A DNA stretch of 64,000 nucleotides from Corallium rubrum (Eukaryota > Cnidaria > Anthozoa > Scleralcyonacea > Coralliidae). Every line of letters starts with the position of its first letter. The first letter of the stretch is position 1. Below, in pieces: positions 3,867 to 57,623 of the stretch. The position numbers and the translations under genes are program-made. Where the stretch lies: assembly GCA_964035015.1 (NCBI GenBank), contig OZ035997.1:17564166-17628165 (forward strand), read 5' to 3'. Under the pieces are notes generated by a model, which was given only the letters and a program-made list of their open reading frames with translations, made no database searches and was not told the DNA's origin.

Positions 3867-3882
3867 GATAAGAACAGATACT
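3867..3882 (-). repeat. U2 nt 35-50, target duplication between LINE A and LINE B
   Basis: Sixteen bases identical to U2 nt 35-50. They lie between the 3' end of LINE B (T-run on the plus strand from 3883) and the 5' end of LINE A. The same 16 bases, with one mismatch, recur at 8830-8845 on the other side of LINE B. Confidence 0.9.
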
Positions 3883-3967
3883 TTTTTTTTCTCTTTAAAT
3901 AATTTATTTCTCTGTAACTTTACATTAAATCAATCCCACCGGACATAATAACTTATCCGTTTCTAAT

Positions 3968-6900
3968 TTATATCTTAAGAACTAATTTTAAGTTGTCATA
4001 TGAACAAAGAACATTTTTATAGTTCCATATATTCCGAATGTTACTAGGTCTTCGTTGTTCATCTATCTTTATCCTTTGCCGTCTTTCATACACGATGGTG
4101 TCGTACAGGTCACCTTCCTCAAAGGATTGGTTGAAAGTTCGTCTGTTTCTATTCTTCCAGAGCGTGAAAACCGTGAGGTTTAAGATATAACGAAGCAATA
4201 GTTGTGCTGATTCATCTGTCGGAAATCCGTCGGAAAAAACTAAGGAGTCAAAGGAAACTACCAATTGTGATCCAGCTATCGCCCACAACGTGTTCCTCAA
4301 ACGCACCCACAATTGTTTGGCGCGATCACAGTTTAGAAGCGCATGTAGCATATCCTCCGCTTGTGTACAAAACGAGCACGTCTTCGAAATTCTCAGTCCC
4401 CATTTCCTCAGATACATCTTGGTCGGCAGTACTCTATGAAAAAACTTCCAGATTGTCTCAGCTTCTTGACTTGTCGACAGTAGGTTCCAAATGCTTCCCC
4501 ACACTTCGGGGGGCCAAAGCCTTTACTGCCTTCACTGTAGGTTCTTTATGCTGAATTAAGTTGTAGATGTTCTTAGACGTCATTTTTTGTTTCTCCATTG
4601 TCTCATATGCGTCCCGGTCTTGTTGAATGGTCGTCTTGACAGTCTTGTACCATATCGGTGTGGTCGTGGGGTCAGCGTGTGGTTTTAAGCTTGTCCTAAG
4701 CCAAATCCACTCCCTTCGAATTGTACTTAATTCCATTCCAAGCCAGTATCTAGCGTAGTGTAGCCATATTGTTTGTTTCTCCTCATCCGTAATTTGTCGG
4801 ATCCACTTTGTTTTGAGTGCTTTGTTAATAGCATGGAAGTTGGGGATATCCAAGCCTCCTCTCTCTTTCGGTAGACTACATGTAGTTCTTGATACTAGTT
4901 CATTTTTCTTATCCCATAAAAAGGAGTATGTTAGTTTGTTTATCGCTGTGACAATCCTGTCCGGAATGTCGAAAACTGTCGTCAAATACGTTATGGTCGC
5001 TAGGGCATATGTCTTGATTAAAGTAGTTTTGCCGATCATTGTCAATGCTCTTGAAGTCCATCGATCTATTCTGTTCTCCAGTTTAATTAATTGGTTATCC
5101 CAATCTTGCTCCATTACATTCCCCATTTTAGTTCCCAAGGTCTCGATAGCGTCTGTCACCCAGTGAATTGGTACCGGTCCGTGAATTCTGCCGGCTTGTT
5201 GCCCTACATAAATGCCTTTGGTTTTATCCATGTTCAGTTTGCTAGTCGATGCCGCTTCAAATTTGTTGATAATGTCAAAGGATCATGTGACCGACATATC
5301 GTCCTTTAGTGTCAGTGTACTATCATCTGCATATTGTGCAATCTTGCTCCGTTTAATGCATCCTGGAATATGAATTCCGTGTATTCTGTCGTCATTGCGT
5401 ATTGCATTTCCCAATACTTCTGCCACCACAGTATATAGTAGGGGAGACAATGGGCATCCTTGACGTACTCCTTGTCTAAGATGAACTGGATCTGAAAACC
5501 ATCCATTGTTAATAATCTGGCTGTTCGCTCCTTCGTACAATATTGCAATCCAGTGACAAAAGGATTTGCCGAAATTCATTCGAGTCAGAATTTTATAGAG
5601 AAAGGTCCTGTTGATCCTGTCGAAGGTTTTTTCCTGATCAATATTTATCAAAATTAGGTTTGTATTATTCTTAGTTGTAGAGTAGATCATGTCGCGAAGT
5701 CTGAAAAGATTGTCGTAAATACTCCTATCTTGTATTCCGCAAGTCTGGTCTTCGTCTATCACAGACGGAAGTGCTCGTTTAAGTCTCTTGGCCATAATTT
5801 TGGCCAAAATTTTGTAGTCTGTATTTAAAAGTGATATGGGTCTCCAGTTCTTTAGTAGTTGTTTGTTATCTTTTTTGAAGATCAGGCGCAATAAGGCCCT
5901 TTTCTGAGATTGGGACATTTCTCCTTGGTCATAGTTTTGGTTGTAGATATCTGTTAAAACGCCATTTAGCTCTCGTTGAAAAACTTTGTAGAACTCAGCA
6001 GGTATCCCGTCGGGTCCTGGTGCTTTGTTAGATGTAAGGTCCTTTATTGCTTGCTCTGTTTCCTGTAAGGTCACTGGGCCGTCACACTCAACCCGCTCGT
6101 TGTCTGTCAGAATCGCTTGTATCTGGTCAAGAAACCAGGCTTGTTGCGCGTTGTCTGTCTGTTCGTCTGTGTATAGTTCTTGGTAATATCTTCTCGTTTC
6201 TTCTAAGATTTCGGCATCGTCTGTCACTGTTTTGTTTTGTGGAGTGATTAATTCCGTAATAGTGTTCCGGGGTTGTTTCTTTGTTTCAAGTGAAAAGAAA
6301 AACTTCGTGGGTTTTTCTCCATCTTCAAGCCATCTTGTATTTGTGCCCCACGTAGTTGTTCGTCATCAGTCTCTCGTATTTGTGCTTCGATTTCAAGTAT
6401 TTTCGCGATGTTTGGATTTAATTGTTGTTTCAAGGTCGTTAGTTTCTTAAGTAGCTCTTGTTTTAGCTTAAAACGTCTTCGTGATTTGGCCACACTATGC
6501 TTGATCGTTATTTCTTTCGTTCTTGTTTTGAAAATGTCCCACCACTCTGCCAAAGTTGGGTATTCTTGTTTCGTGGTTTTCCAGTAGGTTATGAATGCTC
6601 GCATTTCTCGTTGGTAATATTTATCACGCAAAATATTAACGTTCATCTTCCAAATACCCGGTCCTGCCCGGCGTTGCTTTTTAATTATAAAGTCAAGATC
6701 TACTGCGCAGTGGTCTGTATACGGGCATGCTCTAATGTGTGTCTTGGCTCCAGACATCGTGGAAATCGGTATATACCATCTGTCCAGTCTTGTTCGTATC
6801 GTAAAGTTCTTGTTATTCCATGTGAAAACTCGATCATCTTTGTGCAGTTGTCGCCATACGTCTGTCAGGTTTAATGTTTGTGTAAATCCGAGTAGTTCGT

Positions 6901-7366
6901 TGATTCCTTCCTTCCCACTGAGTGGGTTGCCACCTAATTTGTCCTTGGATGGGTCTTCAATACAATTGAAATCCCCTCCTATAATAACGTTTTTGTTTCC
7001 GGTATTAAAGTTCCATAAGTTATTAAAAAATTCTTTACGTTGTTTGTCTCCCGTAGGTGCGTAAACCGTCATTAAGTTTAGTTCTGACTCATTTATAAAG
7101 ATTTTCATTGCTGTTATACGTCCTTCTGTATCCATGACCACTTTTTCCAGCTCGGCTTCAAGGTTTTCTTTCAAAAATATTGCCGTCCCGCAGCTTCTAT
7201 TAGTGCCCAAGCTCCAAAAGCCCTTGCCACTCCACTCAGTTGTCCAATTTGTTGCGTTGCTTGACGTAGCGCAATGAGTTTCTTGTAAAAAAAATATATC
7301 AGCGTCAAATTGTTTTAAGTAATGAAATATTCTTGATCGTTTCGGTTGTTCTGCGATACCGTTCAC
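3968..7366 (-). pseudogene. LINE B ORF2: endonuclease-reverse transcriptase, broken
   Basis: The pieces read in order from high to low coordinate. 7366-6248 is the endonuclease (FLQETHC, GGDFNCIEDP, TRLDRWYI, YTDHCAVDL). 6227-5283 is the RT (KAPGPDGIPAEFYK, DQEKTFDRI, RQGCPLSPLL, QYADDSTL). 5231-4458 is the post-RT region. 4504-3968 is the C-terminus with a zinc-binding CSFCTQAEDMLHALLNC motif. The RT pieces are in one phase, separated by an in-frame TGA at 5283-5285. Frameshifts lie near 6230-6330 and near 4460-4500. The YADD core is kept, so decay looks recent. No ATG precedes the TLNVNGI start; upstream sequence is open in frame. Confidence 0.85.
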
Positions 7367-7383
7367 GTTTAGGGTTAAGAGTT

Positions 7384-8700
7384 TTAATTTGAATGTTTGA
7401 CCATATAAGGGTTTCTGACCTTGGCATGCGAGACCCTCGCTTTCTGTTTTTTGGCTGGTGGTTGTCGTTTAGGGCTCCACGGTACAGACTTGTCACGTCT
7501 CACCAGTGTTTTCCGTTTTGTTCCACCCTTCCCGGATGGTTTTGTGGTATTTACGTCGGTAGACAAATGATCTGATTCGGGGTTTCCCCCATCCGTCTCG
7601 CCGTCTTCGCTTTCGATATTATTCCCGTTGTTATTCTCCGCTGTGTTTACTTGATCAGTATTCTTCTCGGTTTCACTCGTTTCTGCTTTCTCTAACCCAG
7701 TTTCCATTTCCGTCTCGTGGGTTTTCTCTTTCTCTTCCTCTGTGTTGTTGACTGAGGTCTCTTCTATATTTATAGCAGTGTCGTCAGATGTCTGGGGTGT
7801 TAATGTAATTGGATCCGTGACAACAGCGTTGTCAACGACTGTCTGGTTTTGAAATTCTGTCTGGCTCTCTGAGGAGATATTTTCAGCCCCAATTTCAGTT
7901 TCGGTTGAAGTTGTTGATATCGTATTTGTTTGTCCCTCGCTTGAGCTTTCTCCGAATGGGGGAGTAAGGTTACTAGCTCCACCGGAGTTACCTTCATTTG
8001 TGTCGGTTAAAGCAGGAAATTCCTCTAGAAATTTCGGGCAGTTCGTCGCCAAATGACCTTGTTCTTGGCAATAATAACACCTTCGACTTGGGCAGTTCGG
8101 TTTGGCATGATCGGGCGATCCGCATTCTTTGCAGACTACCCCGGCTTCACAATCTATCGCCAGATGACCTGGCTTCTTGCATTTCCTGCATGTTTTAGTT
8201 TGACCATAGTAATCAATTCGTACTTGATATCTCCCGGCATAAATATATGACGGGATTTCACGTGTTAATTCCATGAGAATTTCTTTTACCCCGGTTTTGA
8301 CATCGCATGTTCTGTCAAACAAATCTCTCATTCCGGAAGATTTCCCATAGTAAACCAGCGCTTTGTCCAGCGCTTCTGTGTCGGCGTCTAAAGGATAGCC
8401 ATATATTCCAACTTTTGTGAGTTTACGCGTTGGTCTGGCCGGGTTGGGATGTTGCAATGTAAACACTTGGTCGTTGCCTTTTATCATTTTTCCAATGGCT
8501 TGATTTCGTTGAACTTGTGACTGGAAGACGACGAACCACTTCGTTCTAAGAGCAGTTTCGATTCCTTCGACTTGTTCTTTTGTAATTCCTGACTCTAACA
8601 GTCCGTTTAAGATCTCCAAACGAAGATTGACCTGGCCATCTTTGGTGGTCGCGTCAAAATTCCCTTCGTTGGACAGCACACACGAGCGTGCTCTACTCAT
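7384..8700 (-). CDS. LINE B ORF1: zinc-knuckle RNA-binding protein
   Basis: An open frame of 438 codons starting MSRARSCVLSNEG, the same start as LINE A ORF1. Residues about 1-170 form a conserved N-terminal domain containing KTKWFVVFQS-like segments. Three CCHC knuckles follow at about 175-240 (CRKCKKPGH, CKECGSPDH, CYYCQEQGH). The C-terminal 200 residues are T/E/N-rich and end with a basic stretch. The ORF2 frame begins next to its stop. This is the LINE ORF1 product that would bind element RNA. It is the only unbroken frame in LINE A or LINE B. Confidence 0.85.
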   Translation of the reverse strand: MSRARSCVLSNEGNFDATTKDGQVNLRLEILNGLLESGITKEQVEGIETALRTKWFVVFQSQVQRNQAIGKMIKGNDQVFTLQHPNPARPTRKLTKVGIYGYPLDADTEALDKALVYYGKSSGMRDLFDRTCDVKTGVKEILMELTREIPSYIYAGRYQVRIDYYGQTKTCRKCKKPGHLAIDCEAGVVCKECGSPDHAKPNCPSRRCYYCQEQGHLATNCPKFLEEFPALTDTNEGNSGGASNLTPPFGESSSEGQTNTISTTSTETEIGAENISSESQTEFQNQTVVDNAVVTDPITLTPQTSDDTAINIEETSVNNTEEEKEKTHETEMETGLEKAETSETEKNTDQVNTAENNNGNNIESEDGETDGGNPESDHLSTDVNTTKPSGKGGTKRKTLVRRDKSVPWSPKRQPPAKKQKARVSHAKVRNPYMVKHSN

Positions 8701-8829
8701 CCTGTTTTTTCTACAGAATCTTCCTAAAGACTTTGATAACCCATAGCCAAAAGGCTAAAGTCGTTGTTAAACTTGTAGTACCTAAAAAGATGAATATTCG
8801 AGAGCGCCAAAAACGTCTTCACCGGAAGT

Positions 8830-8857
8830 GATAAGAACAGATATTACACTTGATCTT
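8830..8857 (-). pseudogene. U2 fragment nt 23-50
   Basis: A 28-nt piece of U2 between LINE B (left) and S1 (right), with G36 changed to A inside the branch-point recognition sequence. It joins the LINE target duplication to the S1 3' junction. It shows that one U2 locus received S1, LINE B and LINE A. Confidence 0.9.
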
Positions 8858-9565
8858 GTATTGAAGGGACAAGATCTGATGCCCCGCACCCCCATAAGGG
8901 AGCCACGTTAGTGGGATCGACTCTTCGGCCGAGCCTTTACCCACTCGCCAGCCACCCGTCGAGCCTCTGGAACGCCATAGGGATGTGCAGTGACGTCATA
9001 CGGGAGCAGTGCGTTCCCTCGACAGAACCGTCTGTTAGGACTGCCTACGCTTAATGCAATCTCGGGCTCCCTAAAGCCGAACCTATTGCCGTCACTAGTA
9101 GTCCGAAGACTACATTATAGATCATAGGCGAGGCTACAATCATAGAATAATTAATTGGGACATTTTCCGCGCGAGCGCGATTTCTGACGGCATCGTAAAC
9201 TCTTTGAAAAAAAAAAATCCGTCGCCTGCTCCAAACCACCATCACAGGTCTTCCTCTACCCTCACAAGTCTACCCTCCCCCCTTCCCCCCACCATGCAAT
9301 GTTGGTCCCTGGGGGTAGGCCTTACCCGCACCTCATACCATGTTTCTGAACCAACATTGTATGGTGGGGGAGGGGGGGGGGAGGAGGAGGATAACTTAAC
9401 TGTGCAAAATGCATCTTTGCTTAGAAGTGACATTGTTGCAAGTTGTCCCAATGTAATTATTCCATGATTGTAGTCTTGCCACCACTAGTAGCCGAGGAGC
9501 ATGCGAGCTACATCATAGATCGTAGGCGAACTGGTATTCCATCACCGGAATCCGTTCATGGACTT
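8858..9565 (-). mobile_element. S1, short U2-inserted element (interrupted by a MITE)
   Basis: It sits between U2 nt 22/25 (right) and nt 23 (left), with AAG possibly duplicated. Without the MITE at 9137-9470 it is about 370 bp and closely matches S2 at 16592-16962. It has no reading frame of note. It contains a direct duplication (CATCATAGATCATAGGCGA-like blocks near 9113-9131 and 9508-9530). Its 3' end uses the same U2 junction as the K LINEs, but its sequence does not resemble the K 3' UTRs. It could be a SINE-like non-autonomous element or a 5'-truncated copy of an unseen LINE. Confidence 0.75.
9137..9470. mobile_element. MITE with TA target duplication, Tc1/mariner-like
   Basis: Terminal inverted repeats begin CAATCATAGAATAATTA on the left and CAATCATGGAATAATTA on the right (reverse complement). 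They are flanked by TA at 9135-9136 and 9471-9472. S2 gives the empty site: it reads GGCTAGTCTTGCC where S1 has the insert. The core holds a second inverted repeat of about 60 bp (9280-9315 and 9342-9385, C-rich then G-rich). There is no transposase, so it is non-autonomous. Confidence 0.88.
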
Positions 9566-9587
9566 AGCCAATAGGCCGAGAAGCGAT
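9566..9587 (-). pseudogene. U2: U2 5' fragment nt 1-22 (locus 0)
   Basis: Reverse complement reads ATCGCTTCTCGGCCTATTGG then CT, the U2 5' end. The rest of this U2 copy lies left of S1, and then beyond LINE B and LINE A. The RNA start is 9587. Confidence 0.93.
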
Positions 9588-9645: not shown

Positions 9646-9703
9646 CGGCCCAGGTCAGCCCACGCGCTCGAAGCGTCTGAAAGAAAAAAAAAAGGAAAAA
9701 GGT

Positions 9704-9725
9704 GTCTACAACACAGGGTATTCCC

Positions 9726-9760
<35 letters not shown>

Positions 9761-9821
9761 CTGGGCTTAACTTCGGTGATCAGACGAGAGCCAGTGCTTT
9801 CCCGGTGGTATGGTCGTAGAC
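9704..9821 (-). rRNA. 5S rRNA: 5S rRNA (unit A)
   Basis: 118 nt matching animal 5S from GTCTACGACCATACCACC to the complementary 3' end, with box A and box C regions present (GGATGGGTGACCGCCTGGGAA). A T-run on the minus strand (9696-9700) three bases past the end can stop RNA polymerase III. Compared with units C and E it has a few substitutions (GCACTGGCTCTCG, and the GTGTTGTAGAC end). Confidence 0.96.
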
Positions 9822-9971: not shown

Positions 9972-10014
9972 AGGGGACGAGCGTGAACGCAGGTCCCCAC
10001 TACCAGAAATTATA

Positions 10015-10046
<32 letters not shown>

Positions 10047-10135
10047 GGAGTCAACCCAGTCGAAGTGCAATGAGAGGGCCTCATCCTGAGAGGACTTCCT
10101 TGTTGATCAAAGTACCTCTCGCGTCAGGTAAGTAT
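9972..10135 (-). ncRNA. U1: U1 snRNA (unit A)
   Basis: 164 nt starting ATACTTACCTG, the 5' splice-site recognition sequence. It contains ATTGCAC (the U1A-type loop motif), a stem-loop near GGTTGACTCCTGCG, and the Sm-like site AATTTCTGG between stems III and IV, ending in CGTCCCCTT. It lies 150 bp upstream of 5S on the same strand. Confidence 0.93.
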
Positions 10136-10193: not shown

Positions 10194-10478
10194 AATAGGG
10201 TGATTTGTCGGCAACTTAATTTCGGCAGCCAGAATGCCAAGTAAGCAAAAATGACGAAAGAAATGTGCTTACCTCTCCCGGTCTTTAACAACGGCGTTGT
10301 CGTGCGGCGTCGAACTCGATGTGTGCGGGTGGACTGAAGCCGGTTTTTATTGATATCTGTAAAAATATAAACAATTGATGTGCAGAATTAGTGTAAGGAA
10401 GCCGTGTGTATATACTTGCGTTGTTGTTGATGATGATTATTTTTTGCTTTATTTTCGATGGTGATGTTCTTTCCCGAA

Positions 10479-10632
10479 GGGAAGAGGGCCGTACTCGGAG
10501 GTAGTGCAATACCGAGACAACCCATGGCCAGGGCGAAGCAAGCTTCAATCCCATGGCCGAAGCCCAAAAATCAGTTTAATATATGAGCCAGGCGTTGCCT
10601 GGCATATCAGATATTAAGCTGATAAGAACAGA
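10479..10632 (-). pseudogene. U2: U2 3' fragment nt 39-192 (locus 1)
   Basis: It covers TCTGTTCTTATCAGC through the Sm site (GATTTTTGG), stem III/IV and the CCCTCTTCCC end. The cut is exactly at nt 39, where Utopia-1 begins. The rest of the gene is at 16578-16591 and 16963-16984. Confidence 0.95.
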
Positions 10633-13600
10633 ATTGATTTTTATTACAAATTAAAGAAACATACAAGTGATGGGACTAGCTTAGTAACGTACATAATTAC
10701 GAATAGTGCCTTAAAAGGTCAAGCAAATAAAGAGAAAAGGATAAAATATACAAATATATCCTTTTGTATGAATAGATAGGAAGAGTTAGAATAAGGAAAA
10801 TAAAATCTAAGGTGTGTGGAGCCATGTGAGGACTTAGTGAGTGTGGGGTACTCTTATTTCGAGTCTAATCGTGAAGGGAAGATCAATAAAAGACAACCAG
10901 ACAAACGGACGAATCATTTACAACTAACTAAATACGAAAGGTTCATTCCAACTAGATTTTTCAAAGTTCGAATGACGATATTCAAGTTCGAAGAAAGATA
11001 AAAACGTTTAAAAAGTTAATTAATTATTATAAGTTAATAAACTAATAATAATGTCACTGACATCACAGCTATGTGTCAGGAGAGAAGGTAGCAGAAGCAA
11101 CGGAGTCGGCATCGTAGGCAGGACCGGTTTTACCAGGACGATCTTCAATTGTAACGGGGAGACATCAGAACTGGAAACGGATGAACAAGGACCACCAACG
11201 GAAGAGATGTATGGAGTTTCATCAAGAGGAGTGGCACCACCCAAAACATGGTCGTCAGGGGCAACATTTCCAGAATCAACAACACCAGAGGAGGCAGAAG
11301 TATGCGGAACATCAGTTGGAGCAGCATCACCATCATCAGCCAAACCAAGGTGATCGCGGTAGATATCAGTAGATCCTTGAATCACATCAGAACAGCATAA
11401 TTTCCGGAATAATGAGCGATAGGATTTAGCCATTCCGATGTGACGCAAGATGTTTTCGTTGGAAGGGTACCACGTTCCGAGCGCGCCAATGACGAAACCA
11501 AAAACTTCACACTTCTTGCCTTGGTCGACGAAGAACTGTTTCAAACCCGCGTATTTGGTTATTTTACGTTCTTCCGCCATACGAAGAGCGTCGACGTCAT
11601 TGTCAAAGGGACAACAAACATCAATAATGATAACATTGTTGTTATCCACAATGACAATATCAGGGCGAAGAAGGGAGTTGGATCCAACGACCGTCTGATC
11701 AATGGAGACAGTGCCAAACCTAACTGCATTAGAAATGCGGGCCACGATCTTGTTGTGGCGACGAGTGATGTTGACCATGTTCATGTTCGGTTTGCAATGG
11801 CACAGAACGTGAGGAAGGGTCTCTGTAGATGAGCATTGACGGCATTTTGGACTTGCATTGGACCAGCGGCTCTTGACACTATTCAGCGGAATACAGTTAA
11901 GGCGGGCACAGTGAATAAAACGCCAGTCCTTGAAGCGTAGGTTAAGGCCATTGTATTGCCACGTTGAGCCGTTAGCGAAGGTGTCAAGAGTAAGTGCGCG
12001 GGCTACTTTACCGTGATCGGGAAGAGATAGCAGAGTGGAGGCATACTGATCCTGAACATAAAAATGGAGAAATCTGCTAGCGTTCTTAACAGCCACAGGG
12101 TCAGATTCTGGTGAGGATAGAGTAGGAAGTGCGTTGTCGTTGAACTGGATCTGAACACCGAGCTTGTGCATTGATTGACGGGTTCTAGTCCAGATGGAAC
12201 GGACGCGATAGTGGATTTTCTTGAGCCGATCATCAGGCAGGTAGGACAGGTAATTGGACTTGAGAGCTTGTGTAGGAGTGGATTGAGAAGCATGTGTCAC
12301 GGTTTGAGCTAGTTCAGCATTGGCGATGTGGACCACCGCAGGATCAGAAGACGAAAGGATTTTCACAGCATGGATGATAGCTTGGGCATCAGCTTCTTTA
12401 ACAGGGTCAAGAAGTCCCAAACCACCAACACGTTTGTGAGAGAAGATATACGATACAGAAGCACGAGTTGGAAGAGAGCAAATCCTTCGGATGGTGGCAA
12501 CAAGCAGCGTGCGATATTCACGGAGATGGACCAAATTTGGAAAACGAGCACGGAGGGCGAAGGTAAGGGAGGGTTGGAGGAAAGTTCGAATCATGTCAAG
12601 TTTCTGCCAAGGCGCAAGTTGGGACAGCTCAATCTTACCCAAATCACGAGAAATGGTCTGGACTAGATCAGCGATGTTATCAGGATCGTGGATGAGACCA
12701 ATCGGAACACCAAGATATTTATAGGGGTTTTCACGATCTAGAGGAGGGATGACTTTGTCTTGAACCACGAAATCATTCATTTCAAAGTTCTCTGGATACA
12801 GATCCTTTCTTTTGGAGCATGTCAGACTAATCGACGCACATTTATCAGGGCGGAAAGACAGACCAAGGATCGAAGCGGTAGAAGAGGCAGCATCCAGGAG
12901 TTTCTGAAGGCGATCTTCTTGCCTGGAGATGATAATGAGGTCATCTGCATAGGCAAGTACAGAAAAAGGAGTGCCATGATGTTTGGCAGAACCAGAAGTG
13001 GACGTTGTGGACTTGATGGTACGGAGGATGATATCGATGGTCAGGTTGAAGATGATAGGACTAAGAGGACACCCTTGCTTGACGCCAGAAAGGACAGGAA
13101 TGTCAGCAGTGAGAGTGGAAGGTGTACGAATTTGGGTAGAGGCACCATTGTAGGAGTTGGTGATCATGTCAATGAGAGGTTGACGGACACCCATGTGGGA
13201 CAAGGTGGTGGTGATAGTGGAATGAGGTATGCTCCCAAAAGCATTTCTTAGATCAAGCCAAGCAACAAACACATTCTTCTGGTTTCTACGAGCATCTCCG
13301 ATGATGGACTGAAGAAATGAATGTTCGTAGCAACCCTCAGATGGACGGGCACTTTCCTGCTCGTTGGAAAGAAGGTCGTGGTTGATGGCCCAGGAAGTCA
13401 GGCATTTCGCAATGATTCCCAAGACCAACTTGTACAAACAAGAGATCAAGGCAATGGGTCTGAAGTTGGACGGATCATCTGTGGGGCCTTTCTTGTAGAT
13501 CAGGACCGTAGTGGCTGATTTCCAAGCTGGAGGCACGTCTAGCTTCCTGAAGCAGTGTTGAAAAAGAAGAGCCAGGATGGAGCAAGAAGGATCAATACAC

Positions 13601-16577: not shown

Positions 16578-16591
16578 CTACACTTGATCTT
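16578..16591 (-). pseudogene. U2: U2 fragment nt 23-36 (locus 1)
   Basis: Fourteen bases, AAGATCAAGTGTAG, left between S2 and Utopia-1. It ends inside GUAGUA, showing the upper-strand break of Utopia-1 at nt 36. Confidence 0.88.
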
Positions 16592-16962: not shown

Positions 16963-16984
16963 AGCCAATAGGCCGAGAAGCGAT
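16963..16984 (-). pseudogene. U2: U2 5' fragment nt 1-22 (locus 1)
   Basis: The 5' end of the U2 copy split by S2 and Utopia-1. The RNA start is at 16984, with the promoter region to its right. Confidence 0.93.
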
Positions 16985-17042: not shown

Positions 17043-17100
17043 CGGCCCAGGTCAGCCCACGCGCTCGAAGCGTCTGAAAGAAAAAAAAAAGGAAAAAGGT

Positions 17101-17126
17101 GTCTACAACACAGGGTATTCCCAGGT

Positions 17127-47412: not shown

Positions 47413-47422
47413 CAATGTAATT

Positions 47423-48886
47423 TTAAAAAGACGCGGAAGAACCAGCCTCATCGGCGGGTCTGGGTATAAGGCCCGTCTGTCCGGGGGGATCTACTCGGAG
47501 ATTGCCGGATTCTGTCAGTAAAGAGGCAGTTTCACATTCGTCTTCAAGTGCTGCAAATGAGTTGAGGCCAGCCACTTCGGCAGCAGACGAGTCACTATCG
47601 GTGTCTGCAGGGGACCCCCGAATGCGGGACCGCGAACGACTAACTCTGTTGGTTACCAAAGCCGGCGATTGGTGCCCGGTACCAGCCAAAGAAGGGCGTG
47701 TCCGAACGCGAGAAGGCGGTTGATCAGAATTTGCTGAGTTGGCCGTGGTTTTCTTACTCTTGGACCGGCTCTGCCTATCCTTAACTTCGCGCCAAGGGTT
47801 CTCTTTTTCACGAGGTCTTTTAAAGACGTCCTTATCCGCCCCACCCTCAGTACCCTGAGGTACTAATTCAGATGAATTAGTCGCAACTGATTGAACGTTC
47901 CCCGTAGGGGGACCCAGACTGGTTGAAGGAAAGGCTGGATTTATTTCACTTCCCTGCTGATTGTCCACCAGAATCAAGGGAGGAGGGATTTGCTCAACGG
48001 CAAATGGAGCATTCACACTCGACGCGCCCTCTACTGGCGCCACTTCCCCAACCAATTGGCCAGGGTGAGGGGGATCAGTGGTATTGCCCACGGTGTGAGG
48101 CGTGTCTGCATGCGAGTGGTCACCCGCAGTAGATTCAGGGCCATTATTCGAGGGGTCATCCACGGGGTCGGTAAGGTTTCCCGTTGTGTGTGGAGGAACA
48201 TTATCCTCAGGGTTTCCCTCGGTATGTGGAGGGTCTTCATTCATGGGGGTCCCTCCAGTATGCGAAGGGTCTACCCCAGGGGGACTAGTGGCATTAGAGG
48301 GACCTGCCCCAGGATCCTCAGCCGTGCCGTTACCAGCAGGCTGCCGACGGTTAGGGCACTGGTTAATTGAATGACCAGTCAAACCACACCGAAAACAAGT
48401 ACGGGGTTGACCGCTATAGAAAATGAGCGCCCAGTGACCCGCAATTCGCAATTGAGAAGGGATCTCCTTGGCGAGTTTCATTAGTAGGGAGCGAGTGCCG
48501 GTATACACTTCCCTATACTTCTCCATCTTACTACCCTGAACCGAACCGTAGGGAGCAAGGGCACGAACTATGGCATCCATAGGGATGCCGTATGGTAGCC
48601 GAACTACCGATACCCATTTCTTAGAAGAAAGAGGGGTGAGCTCCACCGGGTGACCCCGGAATTTCAACCCCTCAAACAGAGCGTTCTGCATCATTACAGA
48701 CGACACAAAACAAACACGAATTTTATTCGCAGCAATCATTTGCACACATTCGAATACCTGGCCCATATGAGTAACTTGGGCCGCAAAATCATCCATAACA
48801 CTGTTTCCAGTGACCCGGGGGCCAGACACAAGAGCCAGGTCCGGAAGAATAGCAATGGCCGTCCGGTTAGAATGAGGGATGGCCAT
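47423..48886 (-). CDS. K4 ORF1: RRM-like/zinc-knuckle RNA-binding protein
   Basis: 487 codons from MAIPHSNRTAIAILPDLAL. The frame extends upstream to 49081, but this ATG matches the conserved start in K3 and K5. Residues about 85-150 form an RRM-like fold region (WVSVVRLPYGIPMDAIVRAL, GTRSLLMKLAKEIPSQLRI), followed by a CCHC knuckle (CFRCGLTGHSINQC) near 165. The rest is P/T/N-rich with repeated HTGG/HTEGN units, a basic RSKSKK patch and an acidic tail (LLTESGNLR, conserved in K5). The product would coat element RNA. Its stop lies 10 nt before the ORF2 ATG. Confidence 0.9.
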   Translation of the reverse strand: MAIPHSNRTAIAILPDLALVSGPRVTGNSVMDDFAAQVTHMGQVFECVQMIAANKIRVCFVSSVMMQNALFEGLKFRGHPVELTPLSSKKWVSVVRLPYGIPMDAIVRALAPYGSVQGSKMEKYREVYTGTRSLLMKLAKEIPSQLRIAGHWALIFYSGQPRTCFRCGLTGHSINQCPNRRQPAGNGTAEDPGAGPSNATSPPGVDPSHTGGTPMNEDPPHTEGNPEDNVPPHTTGNLTDPVDDPSNNGPESTAGDHSHADTPHTVGNTTDPPHPGQLVGEVAPVEGASSVNAPFAVEQIPPPLILVDNQQGSEINPAFPSTSLGPPTGNVQSVATNSSELVPQGTEGGADKDVFKRPREKENPWREVKDRQSRSKSKKTTANSANSDQPPSRVRTRPSLAGTGHQSPALVTNRVSRSRSRIRGSPADTDSDSSAAEVAGLNSFAALEDECETASLLTESGNLRVDPPGQTGLIPRPADEAGSSASF

Positions 48887-49456
48887 CATACACACAAATA
48901 TTAATGAAATACAACTTCTATGTAGCGATAGAAGAACACACTCGTAGTGTAAAACCACTACGCAACTAGAAAAAGAAAATAGCTTAGCTGCCAATGAACA
49001 AGAGCCACGTCTCGCCACGGACAGCACCAAACAGGGTACTAGGAAAGGCCCAATGGGGCTACGAACGAGGGCCAAGACCAAACAAAGCCAAGACCACGAA
49101 CAGACACCAACGGAACGACTACCCCGCCACGGAAGTGGGGGGTACCACGAGCCAAACTACACCAAGGCCAAGAACTGCGCAGACTTTAGAATGGCACCGA
49201 ACAGGGCACCAGAACGACCAAAGCCCCAAGGCCAAGGAGACACCAAGCAGGGTGCCAGACAAGAGCCAACCACCAGGCGAGGAGAGCACCAAGGTTCTAA
49301 CAAGAACCACCACAAAGCACAGTCGTGTGCTTCCAAACAGGCAGGCGTTGAGTACACTCGAAGAAGAGTAGCAGTGTTACCAAGAGTAGCACTCTTGGAG
49401 CATGGATCCACCACAGTCTCTTGTAAACTCGTAGAAGAACGAACTTCGATCGCTTA

Positions 49457-49477
49457 ACCGATAGGCCGAGAAGCGAT
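49457..49477 (-). pseudogene. U2: U2 5' fragment (locus 5)
   Basis: The U2 5' end up to CCTATCGG. The expected CT before the junction is changed to T, so one base appears altered or lost on K4 insertion. Confidence 0.88.
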
Positions 49478-49535: not shown

Positions 49536-49591
49536 CGGCCCAGGTCAGCCCACGCGCTCGAAGCGTCTGAAAGAAAAAAAAAGAAAAAGGT

Positions 49592-49613
49592 GTCTACGAC
49601 ACGGGGTATTCCC

Positions 49614-49648
<35 letters not shown>

Positions 49649-49709
49649 CCGGGCTTAACTTCGGTGATCAGACGAGAACCGGTGCTTTCCCGGTGGTATG
49701 GTCGTAGAC
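49592..49709 (-). rRNA. 5S rRNA: 5S rRNA (unit E)
   Basis: 118 nt, identical by eye to unit C. A minus-strand T-run follows. Confidence 0.97.
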
Positions 49710-49859: not shown

Positions 49860-49902
49860 AGGGGACGAGCGCGAACGCAGGTCCCCACTACCAGAAATTA
49901 TA

Positions 49903-49934
<32 letters not shown>

Positions 49935-50023
49935 GGAGTCAACCCAGTCGAAGTGCAATGAGAGGGCCTCATCCTGAGAGGACTTCCTTGTTGATCAAAG
50001 TACCTCTCGCGTCAGGTAAGTAT
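49860..50023 (-). ncRNA. U1: U1 snRNA (unit E)
   Basis: 164 nt, intact, with ATACTTACCTG, ATTGCAC and AATTTCTGG. Confidence 0.94.
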
Positions 50024-50081: not shown

Positions 50082-50338
50082 AATAGGGTAATTTGTCGGC
50101 AACTGAATTCCGACAGCCAGCATGCCGATTAAGTTAAAATGAGGAAAGAAACGTGCTTACCTACCCCTCTCGGTCTTTCACGACGGTGTTGTCTTGCGGC
50201 GTCGAACTCGATGGGTTTCTGTTGATATCTGTAAAATATAAAGAATTGATGTGCGAAATTAGTGGAAGGAAGCCGTGTATGTACTTGTGTTGTTGATGAG
50301 TTTTTGCTTTATTTTCGATGGTGATGTTCTTCCCCGAA

Positions 50339-50508
50339 GGGAAGAGGGCCGTACTCGGAGGTAGTGCGATACCGAGACAACCCGTGGCCAGGGCGAAGCA
50401 AGCTTCAATCCCATGGCCGAAGCCCAAAAATCAGTTTAATATATGAGCCAGGCGTTGCCTGGCATATCAGATATTAAGCTGATAAGAACAGATACTACAC
50501 TTGATCTT
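50339..50508 (-). pseudogene. U2: U2 fragment nt 23-192 (locus 6)
   Basis: Complete from nt 23. It is separated from its 5' fragment (56586-56607) by K5. Confidence 0.95.
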
Positions 50509-51125
50509 GTTTTGGGTTAACTCTCCCGATTAACTAACGGACTCGACGGTGCAAATGAGCCCCGAAATCGCGTGAATGAGAGTTTTCCTGCGGAGGTGGC
50601 TACGAGCCACATCGATGTCACATGAAGGTTACGAACCTTCCTCCACGCCTGAATAGACACATGGTGGTGCAAAGGGTCCAATGGGTGGCCTTATGAGACA
50701 AAATTAAAGAACGAACGAAAAAAAGCGTTGCGATATGACGAGCCCGCAGGCCGTGAGAAGACTCACTTCAGAACCTCACCGGGTGTTTGCCCAAATCGGA
50801 GGTGGACCTCCGGCTTAACGTCCTTATCCGAGAAGACGACGCCAAGCCCGAAGACTTGGCGATTTTCAATAAAAATATTAAAAAGGAGATCCCCATGCGG
50901 CCCCCTGCAAGCAGGTTCCGCCGGCGCTATCCCCTACACACAGCCAAATTAAAACAATAAGCTCAAAGGACCCAAATCGGAGTATGGGCCACGACTTTGA
51001 CCCGTCTCAACTGATACCAAGCGGCACCAGGAGGCGCCTACGAAGTCGGTCTTTCCTGGGGCCAATGTCTAGAAAAGAAGCAAGGAACGGGTGACGCGTT
51101 AAAAACGGTAAAAATGCCCTAGTGG

Positions 51126-54100
51126 CTATTGTAAATCAGGATGGAACACGAGTGAGCCATCCAGTTGCACTGAACCAAAAATGCCGGAGGCAAGCCAGAC
51201 ACTATCAAAAATTGTAGCTCTGCTATGGCGCTGCTGCATGGGAAGCAAAAACCGGAAGGAGGACTTGATGGCACAAATAGCATCCTCAGAACAGGGAACC
51301 AAACCATCGAACCGGAACTGGTTTCTTGTCAACCAAATACGGTGACGCACGATGCGCAGAAGAGCAGAAAACCCAAGTGGAATGTTCGAACCACAGCCAT
51401 AACCGACCAAGATGTCGCACGGCGATGGGCGAACAGAGACTGGATCGAAACGACGAAGGGGACAAAGGAACCAATCGATGACAGCCATCGCAAAAGCACA
51501 CTCAGTGAAAAGGTGGATGAAGTCCTCGGCGGCGCCACAAAAACAGAGAGGACTGACATTCATGCCGAAACGAATTAGCCTATCCGCAGTGGGCAAGATA
51601 CCGTGAGCTACCTTCCAAGAGGTATCCTGAACCGGACGTAGAAAGCGCCATAACCCCAAACAGGCCCAAACGTACTTCCAGTTGACATTGAAGCCCCACT
51701 CGCGGTATTTCAGCACACAGCGGTGCTGAGTTTGAGCGGAGTTGCCTAAAATAAAATAGGCGACACGGGCACTGAGATCGCCAAGAGGAACAGGGTCCCT
51801 GGGCTGGCAAGGAACCATCCATTGACCAAAGGCTCGGCAACCCCCCATGGAAAACCAAGCCCTCAGAACAGAGCAGTAAAAGGCAGGCAGGTGACGCAAA
51901 GTGGCTGGACTGACAGTCTTCAAATCAAAGACGCGCTCAACCGGATTGGCCAGAAAAACACGGCGGAGGTAGTGGGCAAAGAAACTTTTCCAACCCCGCT
52001 CTTCGCCGCATAGAAAACGCTTAACCCACTGGAATGGAGCGATCTGAGCTTACGGGAAACGTCAACAACCCCAAGCCCCCCACGAGTGACTGGCTGGGTA
52101 ACAGAGGTACAAGCCAGCCCTTCGCGCTTTTTGGCCCAAACAAAAGGGGAAATGACCTTGTTAATGTCGGAAACAATCGCTTCAGGCATCACCCTCATGG
52201 AACCTAAGTACCAGAAGGCACTCAAGCCCAACGAGTTAGTAATCAAGGCCCTACCTTGGAAGGATAAAGTGCGATGCGACCAGGACGCTAAGACCATTTC
52301 TAGCTTTTTGACTAGGGGATCCCAGTCTTCTTTCTCATCATTGGCTAAACGGCTGCCCAGAGCAGTGATATGCGATGCAGACCAACGAAGCTGCACAGGG
52401 AAGGTTGATCGGCTCTTCCATGGGCCCAAAAGAAGACCATAGCACTTCCCAAGATTGAGCTTCGCCCCAGAAGCAAGTTCGTAGCGACCGAATAGGCGAA
52501 ATAAAGCTAGAATGGACGCATCGGAGGCGACCAGCGTAGAAGTATCATTTGCATACTGTGCGAGCTTAGCATGACGGCGACCGCCAGGAAGCGGAAACTC
52601 ATCAATGGAGGCGTCAGCGCGAATGGCACAGGCCAAGGACTCGGCCACTAGCACGTAGAGCAATGGCGAAAGGGGGCATCCCTGACGAACCCCACGAGTG
52701 ACTGGAAATGACTCAGAAATGAAACCATTAACCATGACGGCAGAAAACACACCAGAATACAGGAGCCGAATCCATTGGAAAAACGACGGGCCAAAGCCCA
52801 TTTTAACAAGGACCAACCCCATGTATGACCAATCCACCCTATCAAAGGCTTTTTCTTGGTCTAGAGAGAGGATAGCCGCCGGGAAATTTTCGAGGTTCGC
52901 GTAATGGACCACATCATGAAGAAGGCGGACGTTCTCGCCCATAAACCGCCCCGGAACACCACAAGACTGGTCGGGAGAGACAACAGAAGCAATAACCCTA
53001 AGAAGCCGGTTAGCAAGCGCTTTAGCCATAATTTTATAATCAGCGCAAAGGAGCGTGATCGGACGCCAATTGGTGGTCTCCAGGGGGTCCCCCCTTTTGA
53101 ACAAAAGCGTGATAACACCCGAACGCTGAGACAAGGACAGCTTGCCATCCTGATAACAAGCATTAAAAACTGAAACGAGGTCTTCTCCCAACAGACCCCA
53201 AAAACGAACGTAAAACTCAGCAGGAAGACCATCAAGCCCAGGGGCCTTTTTAGTGGCCATCTGCTTTAACGCATTATGGCATTCCTCGACAGACAGGTCC
53301 CCCTCGCAGAGATCAGCATCCGATGGAGACAGGCGACGCTCTAGCTTATCGAGGAACTCCGGTTGCAACGATGCATCCAAGGCCTCCGATGAAAACAAAG
53401 AGAAGTAATAGTCCCTCCAGACACGTAAAATGCCGAGAGTGCTCGAAGCTTTACTGCCATCTGGACGCTTGATCTCACTGATCAAGCGCCTCTGACCCTG
53501 AACTTTTTCCTGGCGCAAGAAATAGGCGGTAGAAGATTCACCCTCCTCTGCCCAACGAATTCTGGTGCGCACTTGGGCCCCCTTTGCCTCAACGCGAAGC
53601 GCAGCCTCCAGGTCATCCTTGGCGTCAGCCATCTCAAGCGAAACTTGGTCGCCATTATTCATGCGTCGCTGCAGGTGACAAAGGACAGCATTAAGCGACT
53701 TGATCTTGTGCCGAGCGGAGCTAGATTTCTTACGGGAAAAGTCACGAATAATGCGTTTTAGACGCACCTTTCCAGCATCCCACCAAGAAGAGAGATGGTA
53801 AAACCGACCTTTTTCTTTTTGCCAGGCCGACCAAAACTCTTTAATTGAAGTACAAAATGACGCATCTTGCAAATGAGCGCAATTGAACTTCCACATCCCA
53901 CGCCCCCGCTCAACCTGCGAAGGGAGGTTAATTTCGAGGTACAAACAGGAATGGTCAGAACGAAAAAAAGGGGAGATTTCAACTGACCGAACTGAACCGA
54001 CAAGTCGCTGGGGCATCCAAATCATATCGATTCGGGAACCCTGAGCTCCATTGGGCCGACGCCAAGTAAATTCAGACAACGAAGGATGTTTAATGCGCCA

Positions 54101-54661
54101 AACATCACACAAGTCATTGGACGACATTAAGTCAGCCAGGGCGGGAGACCAATTGTATGCCCAAGGTGATGAGGGGTTGCAACCAAACCTATCCACAAGG
54201 GGGTCAACTACCGTATTAAAATCCCCACATAGAAAAGCAGGGATATCTGAGTCAAGAACCTGATAAAAGGATTCAAAAAAGGTCGTGCCGTCCTTTTTGT
54301 TATTGGGCGCATATAAACACGCGACTTGAAAATTAAAATTATCATGACTAAACTCCGCTACCACTAACCGGCCGTGGTCATCTTTCCAGCTCCCCTGTAC
54401 CTTAAAGCGCGGAAGGTACAAAATTGCAACACCGCAGCTCCTGGCCGCGCCGGGCGACGACAAGCACTGATAATTATATACATTATTAATGTTAACATTA
54501 TTTTTGTTAAACCAGGAAGAGAACTCAGACTCTGAAGTGGAATGAGTCTCCTCTAAGCAAACGATATCGGGTTTAAAACAGTTAAGCCAAGACATCAATG
54601 TTTGGCGATGTTCCAAGGCACGAAGGCCCTGGACATTCAGGGTGACTACAGAAGTAGCCAT
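51126..54661 (-). pseudogene. K5 ORF2: endonuclease-reverse transcriptase, frameshift and YADD to YAND
   Basis: The frame 54661-51920 covers the endonuclease (TLNVQGLRAL, CLEETHSTS, CGDFNTVVDP, RSDHSCLY) and the RT (KAPGLDGLPAEFY, DQEKAFDRVDW, VRQGCPLSPLL). The active-site box reads QYANDTSTL (52544-52555), with Asn for the first catalytic Asp. A shift near 52035 moves the frame to one continuing through 51923-51126 (SPATLRHLPAF, zinc motif CFCGAAEDFIHLFTEC, end SLVFHPDLQ). Both lesions would abolish RT function. Confidence 0.88.
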
Positions 54662-56134
54662 TAAGACAGCGATGGTGGATCCCCACGAGGTTGCAAATGC
54701 TTGCTCGGAGGGTGGTGTTCACGGAGGTTACCGGACTCGGTCAAAAGTGGAGAGTCATCTTCGTTATCGCATTGATCCTGTAAAGCCTGGAAACGGTTAG
54801 CAAGAGCAGGACCACCAGGAGAAGATTTTTCGATCGGAGAACGACTACGATCCCGGCTACGTTCCCGACTACGTTCCCGAACTTGAGACTGGGCGGAGGA
54901 TAAAGTATGATGGGAAGAGGGCTTACGTTTAGAATTTATTGCCGATCCGGACGGGCCAGGTTGCAGTGGAGCGTTAGCTGCAGTCGATACAGGGACTTGA
55001 CCATGGGCTCGGCCCAAAACAACAGACGGGGTTTCAGGGATTACAAAATCTCCCTCCGAGTCGGCAGGAAGAGCGAGATCGTCAGGGGGGAGATACTTAT
55101 CTAGGAACTCATGCAAGGGCAGGGCTTCATGGTCCTGCCTTAATTTCTTGGGGGGAGGGAAATCATCCCCATCTGAACCATCAGACGGCGTGTAGCCAGT
55201 TACCTCAGGCTCATTAGAGAAGGCCGGAGGAGAAATTCCCATCTGCTGCTCACCCGGGAGGCCGGAAGCAGAATTACCAGTAGCCTGCAATGCAGGCTCG
55301 ACATGCGGTTCATTGCCCTGCTGCTCAGTGAAGGAAGGAACAGACGCGCCATCCACAAGCGGATGAGTAGAGGGGGCAACTGCCCCCCGGAAGTAGATGG
55401 TCGGTCAGAAGACGGGCCATCTGCGGGATGAATGATTGGTGGGTGTACAGACTCCCCTGAAGTTGACAGACCTTCAAAAGGTGGGGGAGTCCCACCACCA
55501 GTGGGTTGATTTACAAGCGAGGGTGCAACCCCCCGGATGCAGCCAAATCACCAGATGGAGGAGCAGCCCAACCCCGAGGGCGATGCTCCTGCTGCTGATT
55601 ACGCGGACACTGGGAAGACTGATGGCCAGGGATCCCACACCTGAAACAAGTGCGAACCTGACCCTTATAAAAAATGGGGCACAAATGCCCTCTGATCCGC
55701 ACCTGAGACGGTATGGGTGCATTGATTTCCATGCGGACTGATCGTGTTCCAATAGGTAACCCACGGCAAACCTCCTGTTTAACACTAAAGATCTTGCCAT
55801 AGGCCCCCAAAACCATTTTAACATCGTCGTCCGGGATGCTGTATGGAAGACGAAGAACAGTCACCCATTTAGAGCGTGACAGGGGGGCAAAGGTGACCGG
55901 ATGACCTCTAAAGGTGAGGCCAGCACTAATAACCTCCTCCATTAAGGCAGGGGAGGGGAAGGTGACACGCACCTTGTTGGCAGCTATGAGCTGCAAACAC
56001 GCAAAAGTGGTCAATAACCCCTGCACCTGTCGGTCGAATTCTGCGACCACCTGAGCGATCGTCACTGGTGTGTCCTTTAAGGACAACTCCGGCAGGGTTA
56101 TAAACCCGGAACGGTTAGCGTACGGCTGAGCCAT
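54661..56134 (-). pseudogene. K5 ORF1: RRM-like/zinc-knuckle protein, frameshifted
   Basis: It starts MAQPYANRSGFITLPELSL at 56134. The first phase runs to 55511 with the RRM-like part (WVTVLRLPYSIPDDDVKMVLG) and a CCHC knuckle (CFRCGIPGHQSSQC). The second phase, 55356-54661, has an acidic P-rich region, an RERSRERSRDRSRS basic repeat and LLTESGNLR. The shift lies between 55356 and 55511. The stop overlaps the ORF2 start as TAATG. Confidence 0.85.
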
Positions 56135-56585
56135 CACAGCAAACACACAAAGATAAAAAATACAAAGAACGGAGAAAACTCACGTCCCTCCACAGCCCAG
56201 GTGGAGGACCTCCGACTAACACGAAGCGACAACCAAGGGGGAGACATCCATGCACGGCACCGAACAGGGCACCAGAAAGCCAAGGTCGAAGAGACCAACA
56301 ACGGGCACCGAAGAGGGCACCAAAAAGCAAAGGCCGACGAGACCAACCAAAGGTACCAAACAGGGCACCGGAAAACCACGAGTCCACCACACGAACGAGG
56401 CGCAAAGGCTCCAAGAAGAACCACCAGAAAGGCACGGTCTTGCACCAGGACGAACAGCAGGCGTTGAAAAAACTCGTAGACAGAGCAGTAGTGTTACTAG
56501 GAGTAGCACTCCTAGAGCATGGATCCACCACAGTCTCTAATACTGAAACTCGCAAGAAGAATCAGAGATCGCTAAGACTCGATTA

Positions 56586-56607
56586 AGCCAATAGGCCGAG
56601 AAGCGAT
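56586..56607 (-). pseudogene. U2: U2 5' fragment nt 1-22 (locus 6)
   Basis: The 5' end of the U2 copy split by K5. The RNA start is 56607. Confidence 0.93.
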
Positions 56608-56665: not shown

Positions 56666-56722
56666 CGGCCCAGGTCAGCCCACGCGCTCGAAGCGTCTGA
56701 AAGAAAAAAAAAAGAAAAAGGT

Positions 56723-56744
56723 GTCTACGACACGGGGTATTCCC

Positions 56745-56779
<35 letters not shown>

Positions 56780-56840
56780 CCGGGCTTAACTTCGGTGATC
56801 AGACGAGAACCGGTGCTTTCCCGGTGGTATGGTCGTAGAC
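56723..56840 (-). rRNA. 5S rRNA: 5S rRNA (unit F)
   Basis: 118 nt, identical by eye to units C and E. A minus-strand T-run follows. Confidence 0.97.
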
Positions 56841-56990: not shown

Positions 56991-57033
56991 AGGGGACGAG
57001 CGCGAACGCAGGTCCCCACTACCAGAAATTATA

Positions 57034-57065
<32 letters not shown>

Positions 57066-57154
57066 GGAGTCAACCCAGTCGAAGTGCAATGAGAGGGCCT
57101 CATCCTGAGAGGACTTCCTTGTTGATCAAAGTACCTCTCGTGTCAAGTAAGTAT
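56991..57154 (-). ncRNA. U1: U1 snRNA with altered 5' splice-site recognition sequence (unit F)
   Basis: 164 nt. The 5' end reads ATACTTACTTGACACG where the other five copies read ATACTTACCTGACGCG. C9 is T, plus a second change at nt 14. C9 pairs with the last exon base (G-1). The rest of the gene, including the Sm-like site, is unchanged. It may be a variant U1 or the first step of decay. Confidence 0.92.
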
Positions 57155-57203
57155 GCATGTGTTTGTCGCAGAAAGCCTATGACCGGGTACTACGAGTCAG
57201 CGG

Positions 57204-57212
57204 CATGTGGTT
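57204..57212 (-). promoter_or_regulatory. Candidate PSE of U1 (unit F)
   Basis: CATGTGGTT on the plus strand, 50-58 bp upstream of the U1 start. Confidence 0.6.
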
Positions 57213-57469
57213 AATAGGGTAATTTGTCGGCAACTGAATTCCGACAGCCAGCATGCCGATTAAGTTAAAATGAGGAAAGAAACGTGCTTACCTACCCCTC
57301 TCGGTCTTTCACGACGGTGTTGTCTTGCGGCGTCGAACTCGATGGGTTTCTGTTGATATCTGTAAAATATAAAGAATTGATGTGCGAAATTAGTGGAAGG
57401 AAGCCGTGTATGTACTTGTGTTGTTGATGAGTTTTTGCTTTATTTTCGATGGTGATGTTCTTCCCCGAA

Positions 57470-57623
57470 GGGAAGAGGGCCGTACTCGGAGGTAGTGCGA
57501 TACCGAGACAACCCGTGGCCAGGGCGAAGCAAGCTTCAATCCCATGGCCGAAGCCCAAAAATAAGTTTAATATATGAGCCAGGCGTTGCCTGGCATATCA
57601 GATATTAAGCTGATAAGAACAGA
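57470..57623 (-). pseudogene. U2: U2 3' fragment nt 39-192 (locus 7)
   Basis: It is cut at nt 39 by Utopia-2. It has one change beside the Sm site (AAAATAAGTTT for AAAATCAGTTT on the plus strand). The 5' part lies beyond Utopia-2 and is not in the window. Confidence 0.94.

Follow-up and report, generated by a model that had tools for sequence, protein, structure and literature searches.

Retrotransposon insertions at U2 and U1 genes of a U2-U1-5S array in the octocoral Corallium rubrum

Introduction

The closest described counterparts of the locus presented here are mobile elements residing in genes of small nuclear RNA (snRNA) and ribosomal RNA. Keno is a long interspersed nuclear element (LINE) found in U2 of fish, frogs, lancelet and hydra (Kojima & Fujiwara 2004, as reported in PMC4640811). 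In the latter source, the 3' flank of Utopia begins at U2 nucleotide (nt) 39 and that of Keno is given as identical, several families reside together in one array in Phytophthora, and for U1 only Dada-U1, a DNA transposon, is listed (Kojima & Jurka 2015, PMC4640811). The same authors pose as an open problem the survival of an element whose target exists in only tens of essential copies. Dada-U1 lies in zebrafish U1 with a 6-nt target site duplication (TSD), GCGAAT/GCGAAC (PMC3706591). For R2, a model has been presented in which exchange keeps one block clean and insertions are retained beyond that block (Zhou et al. 2013, PMC3542110). We describe here an array of U2, U1 and 5S genes in Corallium rubrum. 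The COX1 sequence (333 aa), with 97% identity to octocorals such as Ellisellidae and Protoptilum, places the host among the octocorals and excludes a ceriantharian, to which the mitochondrial contig had first pointed. The stretch analysed, called the window, is 64,000 nt long (C1:17564166-17628165, where C1 is contig OZ035997.1; the genome totals 474 Mb). We estimate a probability of about 0.77 that the window is the insertion-laden part of a larger U2-U1-5S locus, with a homogenised clean block and passive accumulation of insertions outside it.

Results

The tandem unit is about 1.06 kb long and has the order U2-U1-5S; in the reference copy of 1057 nt, U2 occupies nt 1-194, U1 nt 509-672 and 5S nt 825-943. 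In the part of C1 examined between 17.12 and 17.35 Mb, a plus-strand array carries one truncated, 30 intact and eight occupied U2 genes; beyond gaps, a minus-strand array runs from 17.256 Mb onward and includes the window. The intact U2 genes, which an earlier sequence-only reading of the window had suggested locating, were found by pattern search: the uninterrupted U2 target (at most two mismatches) has 30 matches genome-wide, all at C1:17132883-17187912, and a reversed-pattern control has none. These 30 copies rule out a genome with no working U2. The near-uniform block that they form (C1:17.133-17.188 Mb) lies about 0.4 Mb from the window. Mean identity of the unit parts to the reference unit is 99.7-100% in this clean array, apart from single deviants (one 5S at 96.6%). 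Its first 24 whole U2 loci are empty and consecutive, and all eight occupied ones are among the last 14 (P=6e-5, post hoc). Compared with the reference unit, spacers show a mean divergence of 0.1-0.3% in the clean array and of 4-8% in the degraded 17-Mb units; the U2-U1 spacer in the window units and in the adjoining stretch L034 is 4-12% diverged from the clean unit.

In the window, all eight U2 loci are interrupted, each by one to three retroelements, and none of the six U1 and six 5S genes is (Fisher test for U2 8/8 versus U1 0/6, p=3.3e-4, units treated as independent). On the minus strand of the window, Rfam detected six copies each of U1 and 5S together with the large U2 pieces; the small U2 pieces were placed by blastn with an intact U2 from the same genome, and U2 nt 23-36 of locus 1 was read directly. 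Rfam, blastn and junction reading agree with the contents and junction order that the sequence-only reading had listed for the eight split loci, with its uninterrupted U1 and 5S genes, and with its end points 3867 and 57623, which are real U2 boundaries. Its statement that no functional U2 remains in the 64 kb agrees with the pattern search: with up to two mismatches allowed, the 24-nt target of an uninterrupted U2, GGCTAAGATCAAGTGTAGTATCTG, is matched nowhere in the window, and the sole 3-mismatch match (30572) is a 3' junction of the K element described below. The U1 target is uninterrupted in all six U1 genes by pattern search. There are eight U2 but six U1 and 5S because no U1 or 5S separates locus 2 from locus 3, where a break is seen at 30285, and because the U1 and 5S of locus 0 lie to the left of the window. 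Locus 0 reads U2 1-25, S1, U2 23-51, LINE B, U2 35-50, LINE A, U2 35-192, the final piece being just left of the window in L034. At locus 2, the 5' U2 piece is missing along with the neighbouring U1 and 5S, at the same break. The features are listed below in window coordinates, with (-) for the minus strand; ORF stands for open reading frame and RT for reverse transcriptase.

Locus 0
9563..9587 (-) U2 nt 1-25 (blastn, junction)
8858..9562 (-) S1, short non-autonomous element of the 368-bp type with a foreign repeat of ~335 bp, TSD AAG
8829..8857 (-) U2 nt 23-51
3883..8828 (-) LINE B, several ORFs (CCHC gag, APE endonuclease, RT), 3' flank U2 nt 35
3867..3882 (-) U2 nt 35-50, duplicated target separating LINE B from LINE A
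1..3866 (-) LINE A, runs past the left window end and meets U2 nt 35-192 at C1:17562885 (L034)
Locus 1
16960..16984 (-) U2 nt 1-25 (blastn, junction)
16592..16959 (-) S2, 368 bp
16578..16591 (-) U2 nt 23-36
10633..16577 (-) Utopia-1, ORF 11020-15624 (1534 aa, R2-like RT)
10477..10632 (-) U2 nt 39-192 (blastn)
Locus 2
17857..18028 (-) U2 nt 23-192 (blastn, junction)
18029..30284 (-) K1, ORF2 region 18701-22234, gag piece ~29900-30260, ~7 kb of other DNA inside
Locus 3
30420..30592 (-) U2 nt 22-192 (blastn, junction)
30593..31788 (-) K2, short copy matching K4 in the end parts only
31789..31810 (-) U2 nt 1-22 (blastn)
Locus 4
32693..32864 (-) U2 nt 23-192 (blastn)
32865..39416 (-) K3
39417..39438 (-) U2 nt 1-22 (blastn)
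Locus 5
40273..40421 (-) U2 nt 39-187 (blastn)
40422..43255 (-) Utopia-site element, 565-aa ORF (40748-42445), 21-nt target duplication (U2 39-59)
43256..43292 (-) U2 nt 23-59 (junction)
43293..49452 (-) K4, ORF2 open, 1192 aa (43873-47451), ORF1 47423-49081
49453..49477 (-) U2 nt 1-25 (blastn)
Locus 6
50337..50508 (-) U2 nt 23-192 (blastn)
50509..56585 (-) K5
56586..56607 (-) U2 nt 1-22 (blastn, junction)
Locus 7
57468..57623 (-) U2 nt 39-192 (blastn)
57624..58800 (-) Utopia-2, 3' portion, then a 200-N gap (58801-59000)
U1 genes, uninterrupted
9972..10135 (-) U1 (Rfam)
17369..17537 (-) U1, 5 nt longer (Rfam, blastn)
32194..32357 (-) U1 (Rfam)
39823..39986 (-) U1 (Rfam)
49860..50023 (-) U1 (Rfam)
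56991..57154 (-) U1 (Rfam)
5S rRNA genes
9703..9821 (-) 5S (Rfam)
17100..17218 (-) 5S (Rfam)
31925..32043 (-) 5S (Rfam)
39552..39670 (-) 5S (Rfam)
49591..49709 (-) 5S (Rfam)
56722..56840 (-) 5S (Rfam)

The same occupation is found outside the window. All 23 U2 loci in the degraded 17-Mb DNA examined, eight of them belonging to the window and 15 not, are occupied, and 2 of 21 U1 and 0 of 21 5S genes are split (two 5S being cut by the end of the stretch read); U2 versus U1 gives p=1.5e-10 in the Fisher test, with units again treated as independent. Small samples at 76.04-76.07 Mb, C15:16.34 Mb and C1:92.25 Mb had all six U2 loci occupied. The filled U2 22|23 junction has 65 matches genome-wide (control 0): 35 at 17 Mb (the clean array accounts for seven), 15 at 76 Mb, 12 on C15, two on C192 and one at C1:14.79 Mb. 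At least two of the 65 are S elements. The A/B-type junction has ten matches (control 0), of which nine are left because the one at 17326456 adjoins Utopia coding sequence; the internal junction of the window at 3867 makes ten again. The insertions read directly are all in the sense direction of the host snRNA gene, which is the only orientation that the junction patterns could detect. The U2 core pattern had no match in viral contigs, and its matches in genome contigs (four stretches on three contigs) included none matching element proteins.

At C1:17303544 / 17297664, the 3' U2 part of a K-occupied locus was not found and the neighbouring U1 follows; array units seem to have been lost there by deletion.

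The K element follows U2 ..GGCT (nt 22), ends in AAAAC and is followed by AAGATC from nt 23, mostly with no target duplication. Its ORF2 matches Pfam PF03372 (APE-type endonuclease) and PF00078 (RT), and the RT is L1-like, the best PDB match being L1 ORF2p (E=2e-79). Several K ORF2 are open, and identity is 97% between the copy at 17.16 Mb and that at 76.00 Mb. The family and protein searches score the best candidates only, so that their counts are lower bounds; among the K ORF2 matches obtained in this way (39 candidates scored), 48 of 50 are within the three main arrays. Six inserts of 1.8 kb in the clean array are located at the K site, have a K-like 3' end and match a gag-like protein only (CCHC, up to 481 aa). 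Their ORFs exceed 400 aa in four of the six copies, and the pairwise ratio of nonsynonymous to synonymous substitution rates (dN/dS) is 0.42-0.57 over four copies, with no significance test. These values are suggestive, and the gag-only elements look parasitic on K, with a gag that has probably been constrained. They are 86-98% alike in host units that differ by less than 0.3% on average and therefore look like separate insertions, not duplicated units.

In LINE A and LINE B, the 5' flank extends to U2 nt 50/51, and after an A-rich tail, which hides the exact position, U2 resumes at nt 35 or 36 with a duplication of 16-17 nt. Pfam assigns PF03372 to the endonuclease piece of LINE B and PF00078 to the piece of LINE A. 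The 3' flank of Utopia is U2 nt 39 at window loci 1, 5 and 7 and at C1:17318046, and a copy at C1:17326315 reads nt 35; the target duplication is 21 nt at locus 5 and absent at locus 1. The Utopia RT is R2-like, with an R2 protein as best PDB match (E=3e-49). Pfam gave no match for a restriction-like endonuclease in Utopia; a putative PD...D-type stretch is visible near its C-terminus. By its site, Utopia keeps the name given in the sequence-only reading, and K, with its site at 22|23, departs from the site published for Keno.

Among the Utopia-1 relatives listed, all but one lie outside the U2 arrays; diverged in-array copies were recovered by local tblastn. The outside relatives (C18, C22, C13, C12, C30, C20 and others), many with open frames, are 63-76% identical to Utopia-1, and a second, uniform related group, also outside, is 51% identical with frames of ~1223 aa. 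For S2, 31 matches were listed, of which six (4-5 copies) are in the 17-Mb locus and the others on other contigs or far along C1. This dispersal excludes S as a U2-specific short interspersed nuclear element (SINE). Derivation of the S head from a known RNA was also rejected: the matches (up to E 1) are below the gathering scores and at a palindrome in the nested repeat. The sequence-only reading placed S1 correctly at locus 0, with the correction that the 368-bp element itself carries a foreign repeat (window 9136-9471), for which 40 copies in other parts of the genome were listed at 97-99% identity.

The sparing of every U1, claimed from the window, is not the rule. U1 insertions are located at C1:14.8, 17.29, 17.30, 76.01 and 76.04 Mb and on C15, and the site-specific LINE junctions in U1 exclude a mechanism that spares this gene. 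The 5' flank of the U1-site element extends to U1 nt 27 and, after an A-rich tail, U1 resumes at nt 23, giving the duplication ACTTT. One copy, 5.4 kb long, splits a U1 gene at 17.29 Mb, and another, of 5.2 kb, splits one at 17.30 Mb. Separate ORFs of the 17.30-Mb copy code for a CCHC gag, an APE endonuclease and an RT, and the 17.29-Mb copy matches the same proteins; a third copy is at 76.04 Mb. The pattern of an A-tail followed by U1 from nt 23 has six genome matches (control 0), and the 17.29-Mb copy and a 12-nt duplicate at 14.79 Mb bring the U1-type 3' junctions to eight. About seven of these are independent, because the C15 junctions at 16265349 and 16401344 share single-nucleotide polymorphisms (SNPs) and tail. 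The RT of the U1-site clade lies ~1.1-1.3 kb upstream of the U1 junction in five cases. The possibility that the copy at C1:14.79 Mb sits at a mere U1-like 12-mer was rejected, as U1 resumes ~1.3 kb on, after a second insertion. No U1-targeting LINE was found in the openly accessible literature, with subscription papers and Repbase outside the search.

The RT tree has 34 rows with only two U1-site copies, a bootstrap that is not settled, and composition warnings. In this tree the U1-site and A/B elements form one clade (support 100/100) apart from K, and the K group has 100/100 against the other labelled rows; within the clade the A/B elements have 92/89. It follows that, in addition to Utopia, two or more LINE lineages target U2, and that one clade uses both U1 and U2.

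Three further features were observed. About 7 kb with short tandem repeats (window 22250-29900) interrupts K1; for window 22200-29500, no match of at least 80/150 nt was listed, either elsewhere in the window or within 17.12-17.35 Mb. On the plus strand at 59117-61192, opposite to the array and adjoining its end, a 691-aa ORF has no Pfam match and is by appearance presumably Penelope-like; it has a diverged relative at C1:17213219-17214978. On contig C129 (97 kb), COX1 is present as a single full-length open copy alongside several that are partial or broken.

Discussion

The insertion sites, their orientation, the census of empty and filled sites, the contrast in homogeneity and the gradient along the clean array are direct observations. 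The fixed nucleotides of the junctions agree with the proposal of the sequence-only reading that U2-directed elements act here at exact sites in the manner of R1/R2. By analogy, the whole pattern fits the R2 transcription-domain model. Several lineages of retrotransposons without long terminal repeats would integrate by target-primed reverse transcription at fixed snRNA positions: K and the gag-only elements at U2 22|23, LINE A/B at U2 ~35, Utopia at U2 39 and the relative of LINE A/B at U1 23-27. Unequal exchange may keep the units at C1:17.133-17.188 Mb near-identical and mostly insertion-free, and this block, presumably the only one transcribed, would supply the U2. Most units outside it would no longer be homogenised, so that each empty U2 would eventually be hit and nothing would clear the insertions. 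U1 and 5S are mostly spared because most endonucleases here act on U2.

A dedicated haven, as the sequence-only reading had put it, would mean that the host maintains a separate U2-derived block as a sink protecting its working U2 genes. The lack of intact U2 outside the clean block, the presence of filled sites in three main arrays and the distribution of the K ORF2 copies would agree with this. However, the clean block itself is being hit (8 of 38 loci), and U1 in the degraded units, with a mean divergence of 1.3%, is barely better conserved than the dead U2 3' pieces (1.5%), which gives no sign of kept function; the U1 and 5S genes that escaped insertion are not necessarily functional. There is no evidence of host maintenance, passive accumulation outside a homogenised block suffices to explain the pattern, and we consider the haven unlikely. 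The saturation claimed with it applies to this stretch (8/8) but not to the whole array, which has 30 intact U2, 24 of them consecutive.

It is about equally improbable that a few insertions occurred and the occupied units were then multiplied by unequal crossing-over, every U2 being hit through duplication of hit units. The arrays do recombine, the two C15 U1 junctions are apparently one duplicated event, and some occupied units are near-identical to clean ones. On the other hand, the occupants differ in family, site and truncation state, and sequence differences among the gag-only inserts of the clean array amount to 2-14%, against less than 0.3% on average for their host units. An assembly artefact, either a mis-assembled interrupted block or a retained second haplotype, has still less to recommend it: there are gaps at the clean-block end, in the window and at 17.37-17.39 Mb, and two filled junctions are on the separate contig C192, but the same exact 3' junctions recur at 17 Mb, 76 Mb and on C15, target duplications are present where both sides were read, and the U2-U1 spacer divergence of the window units and L034 is much for assembly noise.

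Several points weigh against the preferred reading of an insertion-laden part beside a homogenised block. Occupied units at C1:17377862 and in L035 (76 Mb) are ~98-100% like the clean unit, as is L044 where aligned, which suggests that exchange with, or recent origin from, the clean block continues or did until lately. A 200-N gap, followed by 5 kb of N, bounds the clean block, so that its size and copy numbers are lower bounds, and it is scaffolding that places the two parts next to each other and sets their relative orientation. In the interval 17.35-17.56 Mb, 20 kb (17.37-17.39) and L034 were read directly, and the remaining ~190 kb is known via searches. The Utopia relatives and S are mostly dispersed among the matches listed, and thus not every occupant is strictly U2-specific. 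For the U1 site, three of the four new pattern matches read run to the U1 end and one (C15:16265349) only to nt 110; a 95% identical relative at C8:52.94 Mb has no U1 in either flank, and two more (C8:15.48 and C1:92.61 Mb) have none in the 3' flank read. The U1-site group has a support of 92/67, and the U1 hit rate in degraded versus clean units (2/21 versus 0/38) is not significant (p=0.12).

We lean, with some reserve, towards a joint interpretation in which a LINE clade split its target between two snRNA genes of one unit (U2 nt 35 and U1 nt 23-27), which would give the first reported U1-specific retrotransposon. It would share the array with a LINE at a new U2 site (22|23), the gag-only parasites of that LINE, and Utopia, all surviving on ~30 clean copies via an R2-like homogenised domain. 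The clean and filled blocks are visible on the same chromosome, and the open problem of survival on tens of essential target copies can be addressed where empty sites are countable (30) and filled ones located (65 U2 22|23, ~10 A/B, 8 U1). With two sister lineages that target neighbouring genes, target switching can be tested directly by comparing two endonucleases and two short DNA sites, and the new U1 and U2 sites enlarge the set of natural precise-insertion systems.

The locus compares with the known systems as follows. HAL1-type half-LINEs are gag-only derivatives of LINEs; the gag-only elements here are similar in content but occupy the same snRNA site as the full element. Like Keno, the LINEs here have an APE-type endonuclease, a U2 target and a precise 3' junction, with an L1-like RT in K. 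They differ in the 3' flank, which is U2 nt 23 for K and nt 35 or 36 for LINE A/B as against nt 39 for Keno, a comparison made by published site and not by Keno sequence. Utopia is matched in its R2-like RT, in the nt 39 flank (loci 1, 5 and 7) and in the presence of several families in one array, as in Phytophthora, but the listed relatives of Utopia-1 are here, with one exception, outside U2 arrays. Dada-U1 shares the U1 target, while the element here is a retrotransposon (RT, A-rich 3' tail) at another place in U1, nt 23-27 with TSD ACTTT. As in R1/R2, a clean, contiguous, homogenised block is found beside insertion-laden units (here with a scaffold gap between), and insertions are seldom duplicated. 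The target there is 28S rDNA and here U2 and U1, in a unit of three small-RNA genes, two of them targeted by different lineages, and with only ~30 clean units.

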